Virus record (IMG/VR): IMGVR_UViG_3300025030_000421
Coordinates: 1 to 23,458 of that record
Source: a virus
Reading direction: 5' to 3' (one strand)
DNA length: 23,458 nt
Made by a program: the position numbers and the translations under genes. This document shows positions 4,246 through 23,458 of the stretch, in pieces (the first letter of the stretch is position 1; every line of letters starts with the position of its first letter). The notes under the pieces were generated by a model. That model ran no database searches. It had not been told where the DNA came from and saw only the letters and a program-made list of their open reading frames with translations.

Positions 4246-6075
4246 ATGCCCGTTTTCGTGCGTTTCGGCGGCAGGGACATCTATCGACCGGGTTGCTACT
4301 CGAAGATCGACGTCTCGACCCTGAACAACCTCATCTCGGGTGAGGCCGGCACGGTCATCGTCGTCGGTGAGGCGACGGCGGGCGAGCCGCTCACCGCCTA
4401 CGCCTTCTCCGACCCCAAGAGCATGATCGACGCGTTCGTGGACGGTGACCTCGCCGACGCGGCGCAGATCCTGTTCGACCCCGCCCGCGCGGGCCAGGTC
4501 ATCGAGGGCGTGGAGGTCGCCGGCGCCTCGCGCGTCATCGCCATCAAGACGAACGATTCGACGCAAGGCGCGCTCACGCTGCTCGACGCAACGAGCGCCG
4601 CCGCCATGATTGTTAGCGGGCGCATCTGGGGCACCGAGGACGGGTTCACCACCATCGCGGTCGCCGCGGGCACGTCGGGCGGCAAGAAGATCACGACCGT
4701 TCGCACGCGCGCCCCGCTCATCGGCACCGAGACCCACGACAACATCGGGCAGTACGCGTGGTTCAAGTGCCAGCGCACGAACGCGGGCGGCGCGACAGGC
4801 GCAGCGGTGCGGTACGCTCGCGCCACCGGCAACCTCATCCTGCGCAAGCAGACGGTGGGGCCGGTGTGGACCGACGAGTTCACGATCTCCTGCGCCGGCA
4901 AGACGGTCGCGGATGTGATCGCCGAGATCAACACGAAGACCGCGTGGAGCGCGGTCACGGTCAACGCAGCGGCCGGGTCGAAGTCCGCCGCCGACCTCGA
5001 CAACGTGGCCGCGGACTCCGACAGCGCGCTGTCGCCCGACTACTCGGACATGTACGGCGTGCTCCAGGACTGCGTGGACACGCTGAACGCGAGCAGTTCG
5101 CACGTCGAAGCCACGCGTTCGGCGCTCGCCAACGGCATCGCGCCGCCGAACACGCTGTCGGCGACGTACCTCGTCGGCGGCGCGCTCGGCACGACCGACG
5201 GCACCGACGTGGACAACGCGCTCATCGAAGCGGCGAAGTACGACGCGCGATTTGTCGTCTCGCTGTTTGTGACGACGACCAGCGGCGGCACGGCCATCGA
5301 CACCGTGAACGGCAAGTTCGCCACGCACGCTTCGACGCTTTCCGGGATCACGGGGCGCGCGGAACGGCAGGTGTTCCTCGCGCAGCATGTGACGGCGAAA
5401 GCCGACGCCATCACCGCCGCGCAGACGCTCGCGTCCGAGTATGCGGCGCTCAGCGTCACCGAGGTCTATCGCGAGGACGCGGCCGGCGCGAAGCAGTGGC
5501 TTGGCGAGTGGGCCGCGGCGGCGATGTGCGCCGGCATCGCGGCGGCGACGCCCATCGGCACGCCGCTGACGTTCAAGTACATCAAGGCCTACGACCTGCG
5601 GTACGGCTGGACGTGGAACCCGCTGACCGACCCCGAGGACCTCATCAAGACCGGCGTTCTCGTGTTCGAGAGCGACCCGGGGCAAGGCATCCGACTGCTC
5701 AAGGACGTGACGACGTACACGGCCACCGACAACGACATCCTGCGGATCGTCTCCGGCAAGGAGATGCATCTCTGGCACAAGAAGATGATCCGTCTCAACA
5801 TCGAGCAGTACTTCGTCGGCGTCAAAGGCAAGGGCATCGTCACCGATCGCGCCGTCGAGAGCCGGATGATCGAACTGCACCGCACGCTGTCGGACACGTC
5901 GAATCCGGACTTCCTGTTCATCGCGTCCACGGCGGACGACGGCACGGTGACGCCGCCGTTCCGCAACATCGTCGCGCAGTCGAGCGGCGCGGTCATCCGG
6001 GTGACGGGCGAGGTCAACTACGCGCCCGGCATCCAGTTCGTGCTCAACGAACTCGTGGCGATCCCGCAGGCGTAA
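4246..6075 (+). CDS. Contractile tail sheath protein
   Basis: This 609-residue protein forms the contractile outer cylinder of the tail. The N-terminus (MPVFVRFGGRDIYRPGCYSKID) and the C-terminal third have the typical sheath pattern: GVLVFES, then GIRLLKDVTTYT, DNDILRIVSGKEM, a helical IRLNIEQYFVGVKGKG, and a last strand pair IRVTGEVNYAPGIQFVLNELVAI. The middle (about residues 60-430) holds the variable surface domains, including a TGNLILRKQTVGP...VADVIAEINTKT segment like modules seen in other virion proteins. The start has GGGAGGT six bases upstream. The tube-like gene follows after 12 bp, as in most myoviruses. Length is within the normal range for sheaths. Confidence 0.9.
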   Translation: MPVFVRFGGRDIYRPGCYSKIDVSTLNNLISGEAGTVIVVGEATAGEPLTAYAFSDPKSMIDAFVDGDLADAAQILFDPARAGQVIEGVEVAGASRVIAIKTNDSTQGALTLLDATSAAAMIVSGRIWGTEDGFTTIAVAAGTSGGKKITTVRTRAPLIGTETHDNIGQYAWFKCQRTNAGGATGAAVRYARATGNLILRKQTVGPVWTDEFTISCAGKTVADVIAEINTKTAWSAVTVNAAAGSKSAADLDNVAADSDSALSPDYSDMYGVLQDCVDTLNASSSHVEATRSALANGIAPPNTLSATYLVGGALGTTDGTDVDNALIEAAKYDARFVVSLFVTTTSGGTAIDTVNGKFATHASTLSGITGRAERQVFLAQHVTAKADAITAAQTLASEYAALSVTEVYREDAAGAKQWLGEWAAAAMCAGIAAATPIGTPLTFKYIKAYDLRYGWTWNPLTDPEDLIKTGVLVFESDPGQGIRLLKDVTTYTATDNDILRIVSGKEMHLWHKKMIRLNIEQYFVGVKGKGIVTDRAVESRMIELHRTLSDTSNPDFLFIASTADDGTVTPPFRNIVAQSSGAVIRVTGEVNYAPGIQFVLNELVAIPQA

Positions 6076-7001: not shown

Positions 7002-7400
7002 ATGGCGATCAGGAACGTCCCGAGAGAGACAACCCTAACGATGAAGGTGGCGGTCAGCGGTGAGGAACGGGAAGGCGACTTCACCTTTCGGCGCCCTACG
7101 CTCGCAGACCGCGCGCGCATCGGCGGCACGGCCACGCGACTGTCTGGCGGCGCGAACGAGGTGGCCGTGTCTCGCGCGGCCGCGCAGGTCATGGCCGAGT
7201 TGCTCGTCTGCGTGAAACGCGACGACGACGGCAAGCCGATGTGGCCCGACTGGTTCGACTTCGACAAGATGGACGACGAGGACACCGCGGCGCTGTTCGC
7301 CGTGTACGGGGAGTTTGCCAAGTGGCGCGACACCTTTCGCGCCGGACGACCCACCGGGACTCTTGCGAGCGGCGAAACCGGGAAGCCGCCCGCTGCCTGA
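7002..7400 (+). CDS. Tail assembly chaperone, first frame (gpG-like)
   Basis: This 132-residue, fairly acidic protein lies between the tube region and the tape measure, the standard place of the tail assembly chaperone. It begins TTLTMKVAVSGEEREGDFTFRRPTLADRARIG, which resembles chaperones of contractile-tailed phages, and its middle is helical (WPDWFDFDKMDDEDTAALFAVYGEFAKW). TAGGAGGT at 6987-6994 is a near-perfect ribosome site. The end overlaps an open frame that continues to 7779 and lacks a convincing start of its own, so a fused product by ribosomal frameshifting is likely. The free and fused forms would bind the tape measure and recruit tube subunits; neither is expected in the finished virion. 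Confidence 0.75.
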   Translation: MAIRNVPRETTLTMKVAVSGEEREGDFTFRRPTLADRARIGGTATRLSGGANEVAVSRAAAQVMAELLVCVKRDDDGKPMWPDWFDFDKMDDEDTAALFAVYGEFAKWRDTFRAGRPTGTLASGETGKPPAA

Positions 7401-7779
7401 GCAACTGCTCGAAATCGCGCGCCGCAATCTCTCCGACGACTGGGCGCGTCGGTTCATCTGCAAGAAGTACGGCATCCCGCACACCGATCCGCGTCTCGAC
7501 GCGATGACAGACGCAGAGATTGCCGTCGAGTTCCTCGAAGACGAGATCGAGTCCGGCCGCATCGCGCTTGGCGCAAACGGTCAACTCATCAAGCGCGTCG
7601 AGATGGAGGGCGGCGACGTGGTAATGTACGTCACCGGCGACATCGAGATCGACGCGTTGGAGCGTGCGGCGGCTGCCGAGGAGGTGCGGTTCGTGCGTGC
7701 CGCACGCGAGGCGGGCATCGACCCCTTCGACGAGGAAGCCGGCGACGACGGCGAGGAGAACCTGCTCCATGGCCGATGA
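7363..7779 (+). CDS. Tail assembly chaperone, second frame (gpT-like extension)
   Basis: The frame is open from upstream of 7315 to the TGA at 7777-7779 and overlaps the previous gene's end. No ATG or GTG with a ribosome site lies near its 5' end: candidates are TTG 7315 and TTG 7363 (GGGA three to six bases before the latter). The recognisable part begins LPEQLLEIARRNLSDDWARRFICKKYGIPHTDPRLDAMTDAEIAVEFLEDEIES, typical of the C-terminal part of chaperone fusions, and it ends in an acidic tail (DPFDEEAGDDGEENLL). It lies in the +1 (equally -2) frame relative to the first part, so expression by programmed frameshift is more likely than independent initiation. The 5' boundary given is therefore only nominal. 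Confidence 0.65.
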   Translation: MRAAKPGSRPLPEQLLEIARRNLSDDWARRFICKKYGIPHTDPRLDAMTDAEIAVEFLEDEIESGRIALGANGQLIKRVEMEGGDVVMYVTGDIEIDALERAAAAEEVRFVRAAREAGIDPFDEEAGDDGEENLLHGR

Positions 7780-9616
7780 AGCGAAAATCTCAATCGGCGC
7801 CGACACGCGGGACGCGTCGAAGGCGCAGCGCGAGATCAACGACGGCTGGAGCGAGATGGCCGAGCAACTCGGCCGTGTGGCGTCTGGTGGGCAGATCGCG
7901 GGCGAGAAACTGACCGACGCGCTGCGCTCGTTCGCCGAACTACTCAAAGGCAGCGGCGTCGAGATCAAGGACGTGCTCGCGTCGTTCCGTGAGTGGGAAC
8001 GGATGCTGGGGCGCATCGAGCAGCGCAACGACCGACTGCGCCAGCAGCAGGAGCGCGCGGCGCGTGCTACGCCTGGTTTCGCAGGCGCGTTTGCGGCGCA
8101 GGTGGGCGGCGCGCTTCCCGGGCTTCCGTTCGTCGGCATGGGGTTCGGGGCCGCGCACGCCGGGTGGCAGACGTATCAGCGTGGACAAGGCGCCTACGTG
8201 CCCCCAGGCGCGCCGAGCGCGGGTGGCAGCGCAGGGGGCGCGGCGGCAGGGGCCGCAGCAGGTGCCGCAGTGGGGGCGCCGCTTGGTCCGGGTGGCATGG
8301 TCGTCGGCACCGCGCTCGGCACGGGCATCGGGTACCTCGTCGCCAACCTCATCTCGTCGGGGCTCGGCAAAGCCAGCGAGTTGTACCAGCAGGCAGGGCA
8401 GTACCAGCAGTCTGTACTCGCCGCGCGCGCGGCGACCGGGATGGGCGCGGCGCCGTTCGCCGACCCGCACCGCAACGTGTTCAGCGGTATGGGTTACTCC
8501 ATGCAGGACGTCACCGAGCGTCTCGCCGGCGAAGGCCGCGCGACCTACGGCGTCGGCGCGGGACGCATCGCCGATATGCTCGCGCGCGAGCGCGTGCTCG
8601 GCACGCCGGTCGAGGAACAAGCTGCGGCAACGCAGGCGATGCTGCCGCAAGGCATGGGCGCGCGCGGATCGGCGGGGATGCGCGGAGCGGCCTACGACCG
8701 CCTTCTGTCCGATGCGGTGAAAACGGGGTTTGAGCGCGCGCTGCCGCAGTACGCGTCAGTCATCGCGGGCGCGTTCGGCTCCTCGATGGCCGGTGTCACC
8801 GTGCGGCTCGATCAGGCGGCAGCGATGCAGTTGGAGTTCTCGCGCATGACCTCCGATCTCGCGCAACGCGCGGGATGGGGGCTGGGCGAGGCTGCCACGC
8901 TGACCGCGCAGGGCGCGGGGGCGGGCGAGCGCATGTTCCGCTCGTTCTCGTCGGGCGGCGGCGACCCGTACACGCAGGCCATGACGTTTCGCGCGATGGG
9001 CGGCAAGGGCGGGGCGGAGGGCTACAACGAATTCCTCGACCGTCTTGACGTGATCCGCCACGGCTCGCCGGCCGAACGCACGCAGGCGCTCGCACCCGTA
9101 TTCCGCTCGATGTTCGGAGGGTTGAAGGGCCGAGGTGCCGCAGGCGAACTCGCCGGGCGCACGATGATGACGCGGTTTCAGAGCGAGTACGGGATCGACC
9201 TGTCGCAGTGGGCGGGCGGCGGGCCCGAAAGCGCGATGTGGCGGCAACTGGTGCAGTCTGGCGGTGAGATGCCAGAGGGCGGCTTTGCCGGGTTCGCTGC
9301 TGGGGGCAACGTTGGGCGCGGTATCGCAGCGCCGCCGCGCGGAGACGCGCTTATCGTTGCGGCGCGAAACATGGTGAACGAGAGCGGGTCCATCGTGCGC
9401 ACGTCGGCGGAGACGTTTGACAGGACGCTCTTGGCGTCCACGGGCGTCGTGACGAAGTTCGGCAACGCGTTGCAGGAACTCACTGGGAAGCTCGCCGACT
9501 ACACGCACCGGATCGAGGGGTACTTCTCGCAGAGCAGCGCACCGCTCGGCGGCGTGCCGCCGCCTGCTGGTACTGACGAGCCGGTATCGAGCGCAGGGGC
9601 GATGTTCTCTCGCTGA
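7769..9616 (+). CDS. Tape measure protein
   Basis: Start chosen at ATG 7769, which has GAGGAGA at 7753-7759 and overlaps the chaperone's end by 11 bp; the longer frame upstream has no such support. The 615-residue product is helical at its N-terminus (residues 20-100, with a charged coiled-coil-like stretch REWERMLGRIEQRNDRLRQQQERAAR). It then has a long Gly/Ala hydrophobic segment (about 151-200) that could cross a membrane, and a Gly- and Met-rich remainder. Position after the chaperone pair and before the hub is diagnostic. Tape measures set tail length at roughly 0.15 nm per residue, so about 90 nm is expected, a short to medium myovirus tail. No lysozyme or peptidase motif was seen. Confidence 0.8.
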   Translation: MADEAKISIGADTRDASKAQREINDGWSEMAEQLGRVASGGQIAGEKLTDALRSFAELLKGSGVEIKDVLASFREWERMLGRIEQRNDRLRQQQERAARATPGFAGAFAAQVGGALPGLPFVGMGFGAAHAGWQTYQRGQGAYVPPGAPSAGGSAGGAAAGAAAGAAVGAPLGPGGMVVGTALGTGIGYLVANLISSGLGKASELYQQAGQYQQSVLAARAATGMGAAPFADPHRNVFSGMGYSMQDVTERLAGEGRATYGVGAGRIADMLARERVLGTPVEEQAAATQAMLPQGMGARGSAGMRGAAYDRLLSDAVKTGFERALPQYASVIAGAFGSSMAGVTVRLDQAAAMQLEFSRMTSDLAQRAGWGLGEAATLTAQGAGAGERMFRSFSSGGGDPYTQAMTFRAMGGKGGAEGYNEFLDRLDVIRHGSPAERTQALAPVFRSMFGGLKGRGAAGELAGRTMMTRFQSEYGIDLSQWAGGGPESAMWRQLVQSGGEMPEGGFAGFAAGGNVGRGIAAPPRGDALIVAARNMVNESGSIVRTSAETFDRTLLASTGVVTKFGNALQELTGKLADYTHRIEGYFSQSSAPLGGVPPPAGTDEPVSSAGAMFSR

Positions 9617-9621
9617 CGCTC

Positions 9622-11169
9622 ATGTGGCGCAAACGCACACGCACGCTCCACCGCGCGCGATTCTTCACGTGGAATGGCGGGCTGGTGTTCGACGTGTTTG
9701 CGGATCTCGTCGGTGTGTCCGTCAGCAAAGACATCAGCGGGCGCACGTCGTTCTCACTCACGATGCGACCGCGCAGCATCCGCGACGTGACGCAGGCGAA
9801 GACGTGGCGCAGCGGCCAGCGCTACATGGACGTCCTGCGGCCGAACGACTGGGTCTGGATCGACATCGACCCCGGCGACGGCACGGGGCAGGAGAGCGTC
9901 GTCATCGGGCTCGTGGACGAGGTGCGCGAGAGCGTCACGCTCAACGAGGGCGGTGTCAGGATGTCGGCCGTCACCGTCACCGGAAGCGGCTGGCAAAAGG
10001 TGTTCGAGCGCACCACGATGCTGTGCAGCCCGTTCGTGATGGACAGCATTCCGAATGCCGCGTGGCTCGTGGCGAAAAAGCCGCAATGGCAGGATTTCAC
10101 CTCGTGCCGCGATGCGATGGAGTCCACGCTCAACGCGTTCTACAAGCCGCTGACGGCGGCCGACGCAACGACGCCGGAAGACATCGCGGCGATCCAGCAG
10201 GCCGCAGCGGCAGTGAGTACAGCAACAGGTCTTGTGACCGACCAGTTCCTCGGGCAGTTCGAGGTCCCGGTGCTGCGCAAGCCGGTGGTGGACTTCGTGC
10301 GCCGCCTCTACGCCGACTTGCCCGACAAGACGTGGGCGAACCCGCAGTCGTGGTTCAGCCTCGTCGCCACAGGCGCATCCGTGCTGAGCGTCTTGCAGCA
10401 GTTCTCGAACCCGGTGATGAATGAGTTGCTGTTCGACGTGCGCGGCGTGAACGAGGCGCCGCCGAGCGCCGACCCGCTCGGGCCGCTCGTCGGGTACTCG
10501 TCCAGCGCCGACCTGCGTACGCTCGCCGACGCCATCGCCTACACGCACCCGGAGAAGACAGGCGGCACGCGCGTTCTCTCGACTCCGGTGATGGTGTGGC
10601 GCCGCCGCCCGGTGTATGAGCCGGAACTGCTCGCGCTCGCGGTCGAGCCGCGCAGTTACGCCGAAGCCGCAGCGTGGAACATCGGGCGCAGCGACGCCGA
10701 CCTCATCAACTTCCGCACGTTGCAGCCGCCGACGGGCGTGACGGGCGAGGCGTACCTCGCCACGCTGCCACCCGAGACGTTCCGCATCGACCTCGCCAGC
10801 GTACGCCGGCACGGGCTGCGCGCCTCCGAGACGAAGGCGTCGTCGTGGGAGGGCGACCGCCCCGCCGAGACGCTCTCAGCGAACGAACGCTGGATGCTGC
10901 GACTTGCCGACGAAGCGCGGTGCCGCACGGATCTGCTGTCGGGGTCCATCACGTTTCCGCGCTTCGTCCCGAAGACGCGCATCGGCGACGCGTTGCTCAT
11001 GGTGCGGCCGGACGGCGCCTGCGACCTGTTCTACGTCGAAGGGGTCGGGTACACTTGGTCGTCGCCGGGACGCGGCACGCACACGTTCGAGGTGACGCGC
11101 GGCCGGAAAGTGGGCGACAAGCCGGAGGGCACAGACCCCCGGTTCAACGTCGTTCCGAGGGTCGGGTGA
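9622..11169 (+). CDS. Baseplate hub protein (gp27/gpD-like)
   Basis: This 515-residue protein follows the tape measure and precedes the spike, the usual hub position. Residues 75-130 read as a hub-type beta barrel: NDWVWIDIDPGDGTGQ, then VVIGLVDEVRESV, then MSAVTVTGSGWQKVFERT. The C-terminal region repeats a barrel-like pattern (TRIGDALLMVRPDG, LFYVEGVGYTWSSPGRGTHTFEVTRGRKVG). The hub forms the trimeric platform that carries the spike and starts tube assembly. The ATG at 9622 lies five bases after the tape-measure stop without a clear Shine-Dalgarno sequence, so translation may depend on coupling. Its TGA overlaps the spike's ATG (11169), fitting equimolar synthesis of hub and spike. Confidence 0.75.
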   Translation: MWRKRTRTLHRARFFTWNGGLVFDVFADLVGVSVSKDISGRTSFSLTMRPRSIRDVTQAKTWRSGQRYMDVLRPNDWVWIDIDPGDGTGQESVVIGLVDEVRESVTLNEGGVRMSAVTVTGSGWQKVFERTTMLCSPFVMDSIPNAAWLVAKKPQWQDFTSCRDAMESTLNAFYKPLTAADATTPEDIAAIQQAAAAVSTATGLVTDQFLGQFEVPVLRKPVVDFVRRLYADLPDKTWANPQSWFSLVATGASVLSVLQQFSNPVMNELLFDVRGVNEAPPSADPLGPLVGYSSSADLRTLADAIAYTHPEKTGGTRVLSTPVMVWRRRPVYEPELLALAVEPRSYAEAAAWNIGRSDADLINFRTLQPPTGVTGEAYLATLPPETFRIDLASVRRHGLRASETKASSWEGDRPAETLSANERWMLRLADEARCRTDLLSGSITFPRFVPKTRIGDALLMVRPDGACDLFYVEGVGYTWSSPGRGTHTFEVTRGRKVGDKPEGTDPRFNVVPRVG

Positions 11170-11915
11170 TGCGCACGCAGGCCGGCACACGGGTCGAGGC
11201 GAGCGTGAGGCGGCAGGGGCAGCGCCCGCTCGTCTCCTCCACGCCGTTCCCCGAAGTCGGCGTGGTGCTGCGCGCGCTCCCGCGCGACCACGCGGACAAC
11301 CGCTCGAAGGCCTACGTGGAACTCGACGTGTTCGTGCCGCGGTTCTACGTCACGTTGAAAAACGTGCCGATGGCGCAGCCCGCCGGGTACCAGTCGAGCG
11401 ACGGTGAGGAGTTTCTGCCCGCCGGGCTACCCGGGCAGGTCGTGGAGCCGCTCACCGACGCGAAACTCGCGGGGGCGCCGCGCTGCATCGTGGATTTCCT
11501 CGGCGGGCACTCGCCTGTCGTGCGCGCGTTCCTGCCGTTCGCGCCGAGCAAGCCGGGCTACGGCGTCGCAGTGGCCGACGGCCGCGCGCGCAAGATGCGG
11601 TGGCGCGGCACCACCGTCACCATCGCCGACAACGGCGCGGTGACGGTGCAGGCGAACGCGGGAGCGAACGTCAACGTCACCGGGGCGAACGTGGTCGTCA
11701 ACGGTGGGACGCTTGGCGCGGCGCGCGACACCGACCCGGTGCATCTCGACTACAGCGCGGCCAACGCCGCGTGGGCCGCGTTCTTCTCCGCTGTCGCTAC
11801 GCAACTCGACGGGCTGCCCGGCGGCGGCGGGCAGACGGCGCTCTACAACGCCGCGAAGGCCGCTGGGATGGACGGCGAGATCGATGGCGGGAGCAGCACG
11901 GTGAAGGTGGGCTGA
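11169..11915 (+). CDS. Baseplate central spike protein (gpV-like)
   Basis: The start is ATG 11169, overlapping the hub stop. The 248-residue protein has an N-terminal part consistent with an OB-like fold (about 25-125) and a short beta-helix (about 145-182) of repeated V/T-rich steps: TTVTIADNGAVTV, NVNVTG, NVVVNGG. This is followed by GAARDTDPVHLDY, which resembles the A-R-x-x-D-P-V motif that follows spike helices in many contractile tails. Three copies would form the membrane-piercing needle under the hub. The tip is a Gly/Ala-rich helical tail (190-248). No HxH iron-binding tip motif is seen, unlike P2 gpV. Confidence 0.75.
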   Translation: MRTQAGTRVEASVRRQGQRPLVSSTPFPEVGVVLRALPRDHADNRSKAYVELDVFVPRFYVTLKNVPMAQPAGYQSSDGEEFLPAGLPGQVVEPLTDAKLAGAPRCIVDFLGGHSPVVRAFLPFAPSKPGYGVAVADGRARKMRWRGTTVTIADNGAVTVQANAGANVNVTGANVVVNGGTLGAARDTDPVHLDYSAANAAWAAFFSAVATQLDGLPGGGGQTALYNAAKAAGMDGEIDGGSSTVKVG

Positions 11916-11919
11916 CGCG

Positions 11920-13944
11920 ATGCTGACGCTGCGCAACACGCCGCCGACCGCGGCCAACTGGACAACAGATGGCGGCTACGCGCTCGCGCTCATCGTCAAC
12001 GGCAAGTGCTCGCGTTCGTTCGCTTTCCCCGTGCCGCCGCAGGAGATCGAGGACAGCGACACGTTCAGCACGTTCATCCAACCGACGCAGGAGGACAACG
12101 ACTTCTACGTGGAGCGCGTCGGCGTCGGGACAAAAGAGATCGCCATCGGCGGCTCGATGGGCGTCGTGCCCACGCAGTCGGCAGTGCAACAGATGTTCGG
12201 ACGCGGCGCGGATCTCGGCGCGCCGTTCGGCGGCAGTTTCAACATCGCCCGAAAACTCGGCCTGACGAACTCGGACGAGAAGACCGGGTTCTACTACTTC
12301 CACGACCTCTACTCGCTGCTCGCGCAGTACGCGGCGCAACGCACGGACGACGACGTGCAGGCGCAACTGCACTTCTACAGCTTCCGCGACGAGGAGTGGT
12401 ACGTCGTCGAACCCATCGCGTTCACACGTTCGCGCAACGCGCGCTCGCCGATGGCCTACCGTTACCGTTTGCGACTGCGCGTGGTCGGTGTGACGAAGCG
12501 CGTGCGAACACCGGAGAACAAGGAGAACTGGGCGCTCGGCGCGCTGCGCCGCTACCGAATGCTCACGGCGGCAGTCCACAACACTGCGTTGCTTGTCTCG
12601 CAGGTCGGTGCTGTGCCTGCGGCGATCGGCGTGCCGAATGTCGCGCGGTCGTTCTCGAACGCAGTCAACGACCTGCTCGGCGTCGGTCCGGCGCTCGTGG
12701 ACGGTGTCAACTACTTCGCCTCGACCGTCGGCCTCGCGCCGTTCATGGACGCCGACAGCGTGTCGCGCTGGTGGCAGGACTCGGTGACCAACGGCGAGTT
12801 CTGGAGCAAGGACAAGAAATACTGGTCGGACCTCAAGCGGCGGCTCGATTTCGAGTCCGGTGCGCTCGCGCCGACCTCGCGCAATATCGCTGACCGACTC
12901 GTGCCTGCTGCGCAGGCGCTCGCGACGAGCGGCGAGACGGGGCTGCACACCGCCGACAACGAGGACGCGGCCTACGCGACGTACTCGCTCGGGATGGACG
13001 TGTGGCGGCAGTCACTCGTTGCGCTCGGCGCGCGACCGTTCGCCGAGACCGACTACTCGGCCGGTGTGTCTGCGCAGGAGCAGGAAGACTTCTTCGCTGC
13101 GCGCAACGGCAGCGCGGGGCTGCTCGACGACGTGGACGTGGCCATCGCAGGCGAGTTCAACCGCACGAATCCCGCCAACCCGACCACTGCGACGGCCGCT
13201 GCGCGCGTCGTGCAGCGGTATCCGCGCATGGTGGACGAGACGGCGGGGTCGTCGCTCGACGCGTTCCGCCGCGGCGCCCTCGGCACACGCGACCCGGCAA
13301 CCTACGGGCTGCTGCGCACCGTCACGGTCGAGGCGGGCGACACGCCGCAGTCGCTCGCGGTGCGCGTGTTCGGCGACTGGCGCCGGTACCGCGAGGTCAT
13401 CGTCATCAACGACCTGCGCGCACCGTACTTCTCCAAGAGCGGCGCGCCGCACACCGTCGCACCCGGCGGCGTGGTGTACGTGCCCGCCGACGGCGTGACT
13501 GCGACACCGTTGCGGACCGTCAGCGACTACGAAACGTCGCAGCACCGGCTTACCTCGGTCACGTTGCAGTCGTTCGCGCTCGGCGTAGACGTTCAAGTGC
13601 GCGACGGCGCGCTCGTGCTGACACCGCAACGAGATCTCGCGCTCGTGGCCGGTGTCGAAGCGTTCACGCAGAACATCGGCACGCGGCTGCGCACACTCGC
13701 CTCGGCGCTCTACACGGAGCCCGCGTTCGGCATTCCCGCCGACGTGGGGCACAAGGACAAGTCGGGGTCCGCCACGCTGTGGCGCGGGTTCCTGCTGTCG
13801 GCCATCGCTTCGGACGACCGTGTGGAGCGCGTCGAAAGCGTCGAGACGCGGACGGAAGGCACGGTCGCAACGTACCGCGTAGCCTTGCGGCTGCGCGGGC
13901 TGGACAACTCGCTCGTCACGAGCGGGCGGCTGTTGCAGTGGTAG
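11920..13944 (+). CDS. Baseplate protein joining a LysM domain to a gp25-like wedge domain
   Basis: This 674-residue protein has at least three parts. Residues 20-200 form a beta-rich domain (FAFPVPPQEIEDSDTFS..., GTKEIAIGGSMG, AYRYRLRLRVVGV) like the N-terminal domains of LysM tail proteins of contractile systems. Residues 200-455 are mostly helical and unrecognised. Residues 466-523 read as a LysM domain (TVTVEAGDTPQSLAVRVFGD, VIVINDLR, VAPGGVVYVPAD). Residues 570-660 match the gp25 wedge family (DLALVAGVEAFTQNIGTRLRTLASAL, FLLSAIASDDRVERVESVE, YRVALRLRGL). In T4, gp53 contains a LysM-like domain and gp25 is separate; here both lie in one chain. The likely job is to connect hub and wedges and nucleate the sheath. 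No separate gp25 gene was found in the window. Confidence 0.75.
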   Translation: MLTLRNTPPTAANWTTDGGYALALIVNGKCSRSFAFPVPPQEIEDSDTFSTFIQPTQEDNDFYVERVGVGTKEIAIGGSMGVVPTQSAVQQMFGRGADLGAPFGGSFNIARKLGLTNSDEKTGFYYFHDLYSLLAQYAAQRTDDDVQAQLHFYSFRDEEWYVVEPIAFTRSRNARSPMAYRYRLRLRVVGVTKRVRTPENKENWALGALRRYRMLTAAVHNTALLVSQVGAVPAAIGVPNVARSFSNAVNDLLGVGPALVDGVNYFASTVGLAPFMDADSVSRWWQDSVTNGEFWSKDKKYWSDLKRRLDFESGALAPTSRNIADRLVPAAQALATSGETGLHTADNEDAAYATYSLGMDVWRQSLVALGARPFAETDYSAGVSAQEQEDFFAARNGSAGLLDDVDVAIAGEFNRTNPANPTTATAAARVVQRYPRMVDETAGSSLDAFRRGALGTRDPATYGLLRTVTVEAGDTPQSLAVRVFGDWRRYREVIVINDLRAPYFSKSGAPHTVAPGGVVYVPADGVTATPLRTVSDYETSQHRLTSVTLQSFALGVDVQVRDGALVLTPQRDLALVAGVEAFTQNIGTRLRTLASALYTEPAFGIPADVGHKDKSGSATLWRGFLLSAIASDDRVERVESVETRTEGTVATYRVALRLRGLDNSLVTSGRLLQW

Positions 13945-13967: not shown

Positions 13968-15668
13968 ATGAGGTTTCGCCCTCACACCTACTCCGAGATC
14001 ATCGAGGTCGCCAAGGCGATCTTCCGCGCGCGCACAGGCGTCGAGTTTCCGTTCCGTGACGGCGACATCCTGACGGCGCTCATCGAGACGTGCGCCATCC
14101 AGGACGATGAGCAGTACGCGCAGATCTCGCGCCTGCTCACTGAGCGGTCGTTGTTGTCGGCGCGTGGCGACGCGCTTGACGCCGAAGCACGCAAGTTCGG
14201 CGCGTACCGCGTTCCCGAGCAGGCGGCGGCTGGTGCGGTCAAGTTCACGCGTGACAGCGGCGCGGTGCCCGTGAATCCTGTCGCCATCCCGCCCGGCACT
14301 GTTGTTCTCGTTCCGGCCACGGCGACAACCGTCGCGGTCGAGTTCACAGTGGACGCGCCCGGGACGACTATCGCGGCTGGGCAGCCCGAATCGCCCTACG
14401 CGCCCATCACCGCGTCGGTGCCGGGCGAGAGTGGCAACGTGCCCGCGTCGTCCATCTCCGCGCTGGCCAGCCCGATCACCGGCGTTGCGACCGTCGTGCA
14501 GATCGTGGCGACGGTGGGCGGCCGGAACCGGGAGACGGACGAAGAACTGCGTGCGCGTGTCGTCGGGTCGTTGCAGTCGCTCGTGCGCGGCACAACCGTC
14601 GCGCTCGACACGGCAGCGCGCAACTGCGTCTCTCCCGGTTCGAAGGCGTGGGCGCAGATCGGGAGCGTTGCGGCGGCGGGCAACGAGGTGGACTACGAGG
14701 CCGTAACGCCGGGAGCCGAAGGCAACCAGCTCTACATCGACCACCTCGCTGGTGCGGGCGCTGTCGCGGTGACGGTGCATACGGACACACCGGCACCGGG
14801 GCAAACGACGGTGCGCGTGACGAACTGCACACACTCGTCAAACGCCATCGCGGCGGCGGTCAACGCACACGTGGTCGCTGCCACGCTTGTCACAGCCACG
14901 GGGCACAGCGCGGGAGCGAACGCGGTCGCGGCCGCGGCGGTGCCGCTGCTCGGCGGGCGACCGGTCGGCGAGAACGTCTCGGGCGCGCACGTCTACGAGA
15001 GTTTTGTCGCAGACACGGTGTACGCGTACATCGACAACGGCGACACCATTTCGTCCATCGGTCCGCGCTGTCCGGCGAGCCCCGACGAGGAGTTCTACAC
15101 CTACATCGCTACGGGCGGCGAGTTGTACGTGCGCATCCCGCGCTACCCCATCGACGCCGGGTACTCGCTGACGCTCAACGGCGGCGCGCTGGTGAGCGGT
15201 GTGGACTACTGGTTCGACACAACGAGCGGCATGGTCGTGCTGAACGCGACGCTCACAGCCGGTGACGTGCTGCGCGCGAACTTCGCGTGGTTCTCGGGGC
15301 TGCGTCGCTACGTGCAGCGCGTGCTTAACGGCGAGTACCCGGAGAACCCGACCGACTACCCCGGCTGGAAGCCGGCGGGGCAAGTGGTGAGCGTGCTGCC
15401 CATCACCAACATCCTGTCCATCGCTGTCGAGGGGTCGCTGACACACGACCCGGCGATGTCCGGTTCGTATTTGCGCGCGGAGGCCACGGCGCGCATCGCT
15501 GCGTACCTCGGTGCGCTCGATGTCGGAGACGTTGTGTATCGCACGCGACTGAGCGAACTGGTGATGTCGCTCCCTGGCGTGTTGAACTTCACGCTCACGC
15601 TGCCCGCGTTGGACGCGAACCCGACGTCCACGGGCATCGTGCGTGTAACGACGGTCACGATCTCGTAG
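13968..15668 (+). CDS. Baseplate J-like wedge protein (gp6-like) with a large insertion
   Basis: The 566-residue protein has TAAGGTG before the ATG. Residues 1-220 carry the baseplate J pattern: an N-terminal helix pair (YSEIIEVAKAIFRARTG, LLSARGDALDAEARKFGAYR), a strand region starting AAAGAVKFTRDSG, VPGESGNVPASSISAL, and GGRNRETDEELRARVVGSLQS. The family's C-terminal domain resumes at about 500 (RAEATARIAAYLGALDVGDVVYRTRLSELVMSLPGVLNF). Between them lie some 265 extra residues, including a GN...LLGG module (about 252-330) and the small beta module (about 396-444). Dimers of this family make the wedge arms that link hub to periphery and transmit the contraction signal. It immediately follows the gp25-like gene, as in most contractile phages. 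Confidence 0.8.
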   Translation: MRFRPHTYSEIIEVAKAIFRARTGVEFPFRDGDILTALIETCAIQDDEQYAQISRLLTERSLLSARGDALDAEARKFGAYRVPEQAAAGAVKFTRDSGAVPVNPVAIPPGTVVLVPATATTVAVEFTVDAPGTTIAAGQPESPYAPITASVPGESGNVPASSISALASPITGVATVVQIVATVGGRNRETDEELRARVVGSLQSLVRGTTVALDTAARNCVSPGSKAWAQIGSVAAAGNEVDYEAVTPGAEGNQLYIDHLAGAGAVAVTVHTDTPAPGQTTVRVTNCTHSSNAIAAAVNAHVVAATLVTATGHSAGANAVAAAAVPLLGGRPVGENVSGAHVYESFVADTVYAYIDNGDTISSIGPRCPASPDEEFYTYIATGGELYVRIPRYPIDAGYSLTLNGGALVSGVDYWFDTTSGMVVLNATLTAGDVLRANFAWFSGLRRYVQRVLNGEYPENPTDYPGWKPAGQVVSVLPITNILSIAVEGSLTHDPAMSGSYLRAEATARIAAYLGALDVGDVVYRTRLSELVMSLPGVLNFTLTLPALDANPTSTGIVRVTTVTIS

Positions 15669-22054: not shown

Positions 22055-23458
22055 ATGTGGGTGACGGTTGGCAACATCGCGACGCGTGTTGATCGCGCCT
22101 CGCGTGAGGAGCTTGAGTGGCTGCGCGACTTCCTCGCCTTCGAGGACGCGAAGGCGCGCTACACGCGCGCCTTCCGCACCGGGCAGTGGGATGGGCGCGT
22201 TCGCATGTTCAACGACCGCGCGGCGACGTTCCACACCGGGTTCCTGCCGACGGTGAAGCGCGCAGCACTCGCGCGGAACTTCACGGTCGAAGTCAACGAC
22301 CAGCGTCCGCGACCGCCGCCTGTGCGCGCGTTGAGCGACACGCTGCGCGAACGCCTGGCGGAACGCGATTTTCAACTCTCTGCACTCGAAGCGATGCTGT
22401 TGCATGGGCGCGGTATCGTGCGCGTGCCGACGGGCGGGGGCAAGACGGAGATCGCCGTCGCGTTCGCGTGGTCGGCCAACACGCGCACGATCTTCTTCGT
22501 GCCGAACTTGTCGCTGCTCGAACAGAGCGCGGAGCGGTACGAGCGACTGACTGGGTTGAAGGCAGGGCGTGTCGGCGGCGGTGAGCGTGTGAACTGCGAC
22601 GCCGACTTTGTGGTCTGCACGTTCCAGACGGCCTACCGCAATCTCGGCGACACGGCGATGCGCGCGTATCTTGAGTCATTCGGCGCAGTCATCTTCGATG
22701 AGGTGCACTTGTTGCCCGCCAACACGTTTCGTGTGGCTGGCGCAGCCGCGCGCGGCGCGTACTACCGGATCGGAATGAGCGCGACGCCGCTCGACCGCAA
22801 GGACGGCAAGAGCGTTCACGTCATCGGGGCGTGCGGCCCGGTCATCTACGAGATCGCCACGCAGACGCTCATCGACGCCGACATCCTTGTTCATCCACGC
22901 GTGCGGTTCGTGACTGTCGCCGCCGACGCGCTTGGCAGTAAGGACTGGCGCGAGGTCTACCGTCTCGGTGTCACGGAGAGCGCAGAGCATCTGACGCAGA
23001 TCGTCGCTACTGCGCAGGCCGCGGCGAAGCCCGGGTTCGTCTTCGTGAAGGAGATTCGACACGGCAAGCGCATCACCGAGGCACTTGTCGGCGCGGGCTT
23101 GCGCGCCAAGTTCGTGTGGGGTACACACGACGCTCATGCACGCGCGGAGGCGTTGCGCTTGCTGGAGATCGGCAAGTACGAGTTCCTCGTGAGCAACGTG
23201 TTCGACATCGGGGTGGACGTGCCGACGCTGCGCAGTGCCGTCAACGCGGCCGGGGGCGACAGCATCATCAAGGCGTTGCAGCGTCTCGGGCGCGGGATGC
23301 GTGTGGCCGACGGCAAGACCGAGTTCGAGTTTTGGGACTTCGACGTGCAGGCTCACGCGTGGCTGCGGCGACACACGCGCGCACGCGTGGCCGCTTACGT
23401 CGCTCAGGGTTTCGAGGTGGTGAAGATGCAGCGGCTCGCGTCGGTGGCGTCCGACGCG
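22055..23458 (+). CDS. uvsW: UvsW-like superfamily 2 DNA helicase (3' end outside the window)
   Basis: The frame is open from ATG 22055 to the last base, 468 residues with no stop, so the C-terminus is missing. Residues 1-95 resemble the UvsW N-terminal DNA-binding domain (AFRTGQWDGRVRMFN, FHTGFLPTV). Helicase motifs follow in order: FQLSALEAML (about 106-115), Walker A VPTGGGKT (124-131), FFVPNLSLLEQ (about 147-157), DEVH (215-218), SATP (242-245), FVFVKEIRHGKR, SNVFDIGVDVP, and motif VI QRLGRGMR (409-416). T4 UvsW unwinds R-loops and branched DNA during recombination-dependent replication. The ATG has no clear Shine-Dalgarno sequence, and a stop in frame at 22004-22006 bars a much longer start. 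UvsW-like phage helicase is more likely than a type I restriction or RecG-like enzyme. Confidence 0.85.
   Translation, partial: MWVTVGNIATRVDRASREELEWLRDFLAFEDAKARYTRAFRTGQWDGRVRMFNDRAATFHTGFLPTVKRAALARNFTVEVNDQRPRPPPVRALSDTLRERLAERDFQLSALEAMLLHGRGIVRVPTGGGKTEIAVAFAWSANTRTIFFVPNLSLLEQSAERYERLTGLKAGRVGGGERVNCDADFVVCTFQTAYRNLGDTAMRAYLESFGAVIFDEVHLLPANTFRVAGAAARGAYYRIGMSATPLDRKDGKSVHVIGACGPVIYEIATQTLIDADILVHPRVRFVTVAADALGSKDWREVYRLGVTESAEHLTQIVATAQAAAKPGFVFVKEIRHGKRITEALVGAGLRAKFVWGTHDAHARAEALRLLEIGKYEFLVSNVFDIGVDVPTLRSAVNAAGGDSIIKALQRLGRGMRVADGKTEFEFWDFDVQAHAWLRRHTRARVAAYVAQGFEVVKMQRLASVASDA

Follow-up and report, generated by a model that had tools for sequence, protein, structure and literature searches.

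A contractile-tail gene cluster and its long baseplate gene

The window, by which we mean the whole 23,458-base stretch of viral DNA analysed here, carries a cluster of tail genes on the plus strand. A tail sheath gene (4246..6075; phrog_279, E 5.9e-38) shows the tail to be contractile, and it is followed by genes for a probable tape measure protein of ~615 aa (7769..9616; phrog_167, E 6e-4, and gene order) and a probable baseplate hub (9622..11169; phrog_1015, E 3e-6, and gene order). The next gene (11106..11915, start uncertain) has no strong family match in Pfam or PHROG and probably encodes the central spike, as suggested by its position between the hub and the gene under study, which is the same in related loci. 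The latter, at 11920..13944, is a single uninterrupted ORF of 674 aa, and the next gene downstream encodes a baseplate J-like wedge protein (13968..15668; PF04865, E 4.5e-18; phrog_6, E 3.5e-35). The order sheath, tape measure, hub, spike, fusion, J places the 674-aa ORF within a contractile-tail cluster, with the sheath and tape measure genes on one side of it and the J-like wedge gene on the other. In relatives, hub and spike genes are likewise followed by the fused gene, or by a split pair, and then by J.

Just before the tape measure gene, a tail-chaperone-like ORF (7002-7400) is overlapped by an ORF in another frame (7315-7779). Such an overlapping pair in front of the tape measure gene is the usual layout for a programmed frameshift; any frameshift in this overlap would need to be +1 or -2, and no clear slippery run was found there. 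At its far end, the window holds an XPB-like DNA helicase gene (22055-23458) that is cut off by the contig end.

Three baseplate parts on one chain

Phage tails usually divide the tube initiator, the connecting piece and the sheath initiator among two or three proteins. The 674-aa protein carries them on a single chain that runs, from N to C terminus, through a tube initiator, a helical region, a LysM domain and a gp25-like sheath initiator. Specifically, its N-terminal domain is a tail-tube initiator (baseplate centrepiece): the beta-barrel encoded at 11965..12507 on the plus strand (residues ~16-196) matches the PF23980 'tail tube initiator' profile with 35 bits (cut-off 27) and phrog_1011 with E 3e-12, its model aligns with phi812 ORF59 (9euf_M; Z 14.8, rmsd 3.0, 149 residues), and a profile built from the fused proteins recovers the same ORF59 with E 3.6e-15. 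Recognition of this domain makes the protein a three-part fusion. An earlier note made from the DNA letters had correctly described a beta-rich N-terminal domain and had missed its identity.

The barrel is followed on the same strand by a helical region (12508..13305; residues ~197-462, ~265 in length), in which an AlphaFold model predicts helices at residues 201-395 with pLDDT mostly <50. A Foldseek search with the whole model returns Mu gp43 and Milano gp25 as second and third best matches, and the order of barrel, helices and LysM agrees with theirs. By position and chain order only, the helical region may thus be likened to the helical domain of these two proteins.

The C-terminal half, also on the plus strand, consists of the LysM domain (13306..13488; residues ~463-523), a linker of low confidence (13489..13584; residues ~524-555, pLDDT <50 in both AlphaFold models) and the gp25-like sheath-initiator domain (13585..13941; residues ~556-674). 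PHROG 975, a 238-position family annotated 'baseplate protein' that spans both LysM and gp25-like parts, matches the protein over residues 468-661 with E 3.3e-19, and the profile of fused proteins recovers phi812 ORF61 with E 1.4e-30. The two models agree in placing LysM at ~465-523 and the gp25 fold at ~556-674, with pLDDT in the LysM region of 74-88 in the first and 82-94 in the second. In the second model, the gp25-like domain aligns with T4 gp25 (5iw9_A; Z 13.6, 104 residues) and Geobacter 2ia7 (Z 12.9, rmsd 2.4), and the LysM domain with Thermus LysM 4uz2 (Z 6.3, rmsd 1.8, 48 residues). Bacillus phage Goe9 gp14.1, a member of PHROG 975, shows both domains in its own Pfam scan. On the 674-aa protein, PF10934 reaches 13.8 bits, below its cut-off of 32.9, and the Pfam scan gives no match to PF04965 or to the LysM profile PF01476. 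Because these single-domain profiles are weak or silent, the assignment rests on PHROG 975, phi812 ORF61 and fold. The claim of the earlier note that LysM and gp25-like domains share this one protein is thereby upheld, and the domain search it had proposed succeeds with PHROG 975 and falls short with the Pfam LysM and gp25 profiles.

The earlier note had presented the LysM-gp25 pair as what would be a simplified baseplate design. The fusion is real, but by itself it is already known from PHROG 975, phi812 ORF61 and A511 gp102: in SPO1-like phages a LysM protein is fused to a gp25 homologue, as in A511 gp102 (PMC10811340), and phi812 ORF61 provides a solved structure of the fusion (9euf_L). These two proteins and SPO1 gp14.1 resemble the window protein in carrying LysM and a gp25-like sheath initiator on one chain, and in phi812 and SPO1-type sequences LysM likewise comes first; unlike in the window, however, the tube initiator is a gene of its own (phi812 ORF59, Goe9 gp13.1). 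Conversely, Milano gp25 and Mu gp43 join tube domain, helical domain and LysM on one chain (PMC10811340, PMC11915804), as the window protein does, whereas the gp25-like sheath initiator of Milano is separate (gp28). The tube initiators of AlgoCIS (Alg7), PVC and AFP also combine a barrel with a C-terminal LysM, but their chains of ~225 residues leave no room for a long helical region, and the AlgoCIS sheath initiator is again separate (Alg9). The statement of the earlier note that LysM and gp25-like proteins are separate genes in extracellular contractile injection systems (eCIS) is correct, although LysM in these systems is fused to the tube initiator, as in Alg7.

The 674-aa protein is the union of these two known fusions, with LysM as the piece common to both. 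LysM is the middle piece in tube-initiator fusions (Mu, Milano, eCIS) and in sheath-initiator fusions (SPO1-like phages), and by joining the two the window protein suggests that all three parts lie near enough in one baseplate to form one chain. No description of the triple fusion was found in the literature searched; it is present in public sequence records.

Fused and split forms

When all fetched loci are searched with profiles built locally for the tube-initiator region and the LysM-gp25 region, a single ORF with both parts is found in the window, in the Myxococcus phage Mx1 and on ten more IMG/VR contigs (L004, L005, L010, L025, L027, L028, L029, L030, L032 and L034); two of these contigs, L005 and L030, are near-copies of each other recovered from two metagenomes. 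PHROG scans independently confirm both parts in most fused loci; the tube-initiator part of L005 and L010 is seen by the local profile only (E 4.8e-7 and 7.3e-8). Mx1 thereby shows the triple fusion to occur in a phage isolate, in a protein annotated as 'baseplate assembly protein' (WNM70261.1; 807 aa as annotated, 820 codons as called here). It differs from the window protein in its LysM/gp25-like insert and in a gene position outside the tail cluster: the gene (record positions 121405-123825) is isolated on the plus strand, surrounded by genes on the minus strand, and the J-like gene follows about 6 kb later. In L004, L008, L015 (Mx1) and L034, LysM is separated from the gp25-like part by an insert of roughly 80 residues or longer, which in L004 has matches to DUF2793 and tail-fibre families.

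In other phages, including Morganella phage Mecenats66 (ORF81, ORF82), Bordetella PHB04, Pseudomonas Dolphis, Enterobacter phiT5282EW and Thermus Cumys, each half has a gene of its own, and the two genes usually adjoin and often overlap. Mecenats66 and PHB04 share the domains, order and neighbourhood of the window but divide them between two adjacent overlapping genes, and in split forms with a long first gene the helical region remains on the tube-initiator side. The survey of relatives that had been suggested for the window protein has thus found both forms; many of the loci were found via patterns from fused proteins, so the proportions of fused and split forms carry no meaning. Within this set, the annotation of Cumys divides a single LysM-gp25 ORF (L001:8977-9591) into two short genes, Cumys_19 and Cumys_18, and in L007 (2455-6570) the tube-initiator and LysM-gp25 genes lie apart, with a dCTP deaminase gene directly before the latter.

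A tree of the LysM-gp25 region requires three changes between fused and split forms, and a single origin of the fusion is not rejected (p 0.25, with the truncated contig L008 removed or counted as fused). A rejection of one clade (p 0.009) arose when L008 was scored as split and disappears once that contig is dropped or scored as fused. Single-sequence scans of IMG/VR returned no close relatives of the whole 674-aa protein or of the J protein. In bacterial genomes, a scan with a two-sequence alignment gave no match, and a scan that used the LysM region recovered two fragments and, in a Mesorhizobium MAG, one split form. PHROG 4033, a family of 630 positions annotated 'unknown function', matches a tube initiator at positions 46-92 and the LysM-gp25 part at 444-620 and, judged by these sequence matches, is probably a triple-fusion family; its match to the window protein is weak (E 2.7e-6).

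Proposed assembly in register and separation at contraction

The domains, their order and their recurrence support a reading of the 674-aa protein as a one-chain organiser of the contractile-tail baseplate, to which we assign a probability of about 0.82. Modelled on its homologues, six copies would form a ring at the tail end, in which the N-terminal barrel would cap the hub and start the inner tube, the helical region would be placed among the wedges, LysM would form the bridge to the wedge, and the gp25-like domain at the C terminus would start the sheath by accepting the arms of its first ring. The covalent link would ensure a 1:1 ratio of tube to sheath initiators and place them in register during assembly. 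The fusion probably arose when two neighbouring genes, still distinct in other phages, lost the stop that separated them.

The split arrangement of many relatives, with adjacent and overlapping genes that one base change could fuse, also lends some colour to the idea that two genes only look fused because an error in sequencing or assembly erased the stop separating them. This is highly improbable. GC at codon position 3 stays at 0.79-0.94 in each 48-codon block of the 11920-13944 ORF, and such a continuous coding signal makes merged frames unlikely, as does the recurrence of the fusion in independent genomes, namely in ten further contigs and in Mx1, which was sequenced from an isolate at 327-fold coverage (PMC10720576); for the family, this recurrence refutes error as the source of the triple fusion. 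Profile scans of the 23,458-base window, furthermore, reveal no second gp25-like ORF and no second tube-initiator ORF. Two claims of the earlier note, a true fusion and the lack of a separate gp25 gene, therefore stand. Translation might also begin at an internal start and yield a separate LysM-gp25 protein, with the long form minor or serving the tube only. An in-frame ATG at residue 437, just before LysM, would suit such a start, but no Shine-Dalgarno-like sequence precedes it, and we regard this reading as improbable, though less so than an error.

A one-chain organiser raises a problem at contraction. The post-contraction baseplate of pyocin lacks the centrepiece, which is extruded with the tube (PMC10811340), and the XM1 sheath initiator remains under the contracted sheath (PMC10457771); for phi812, the post-contraction entry 9eui contains ORF61, and ORF59 is not listed for it. 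If the tube initiator leaves with the tube and the sheath initiator stays with the sheath, a chain that holds both must be severed, unfold or be released. As an account of assembly, the earlier note's picture of a simplified baseplate in which stoichiometry is fixed is plausible, and it leaves out this separation of the two initiators. We infer that, at contraction, the chain would either pay out by unfolding or be cut, with the cut lying within or close to the helical region or the linker.

Cutting, for which we see not quite an even chance, would mean that the single chain is cleaved at maturation or contraction, after which the working parts would equal those of split-gene phages. The linker of AlgoCIS Alg7, between tube-initiator barrel and LysM, has been found cleaved (PMC8894135), disulfides between centrepiece and wedge in Milano must break before contraction (PMC10811340), and many phages have the split two-gene form; against it, no conserved cleavage motif or proteolytic site is seen in the linkers or before LysM, and no protease is assigned within the 23,458-base window. 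Alternatively, the link could stay whole, with the helical regions of the six copies unfolding into leashes between the expelled tube and the contracted sheath. The 271 residues from barrel to LysM could reach ~98 nm, where a ~93 nm tail needs a stroke of 28-56 nm, and a 537-aa relative gives 66 nm against a stroke of 23-46 nm; these tail lengths are estimates scaled from A-1(L), and chain length alone is a weak test of stretching. The energy cost of unfolding six bundles speaks against such a release, for which we know of no precedent, and it appears possible but doubtful. Cutting is somewhat more likely than unfolding. That the chain is never cut at all, so that six unfolding leashes hold the expelled tube covalently to the contracted sheath, seems slightly less likely still; the literature searched describes no such mode of contraction in a contractile tail.

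The two outcomes carry different consequences for contractile tails. With an intact link, the present view that the centrepiece departs from the baseplate would need amending; with a cut one, a new maturation step must exist. Since Mx1 is culturable, the separation of tube and sheath at firing can be tested in a phage that carries the triple fusion.
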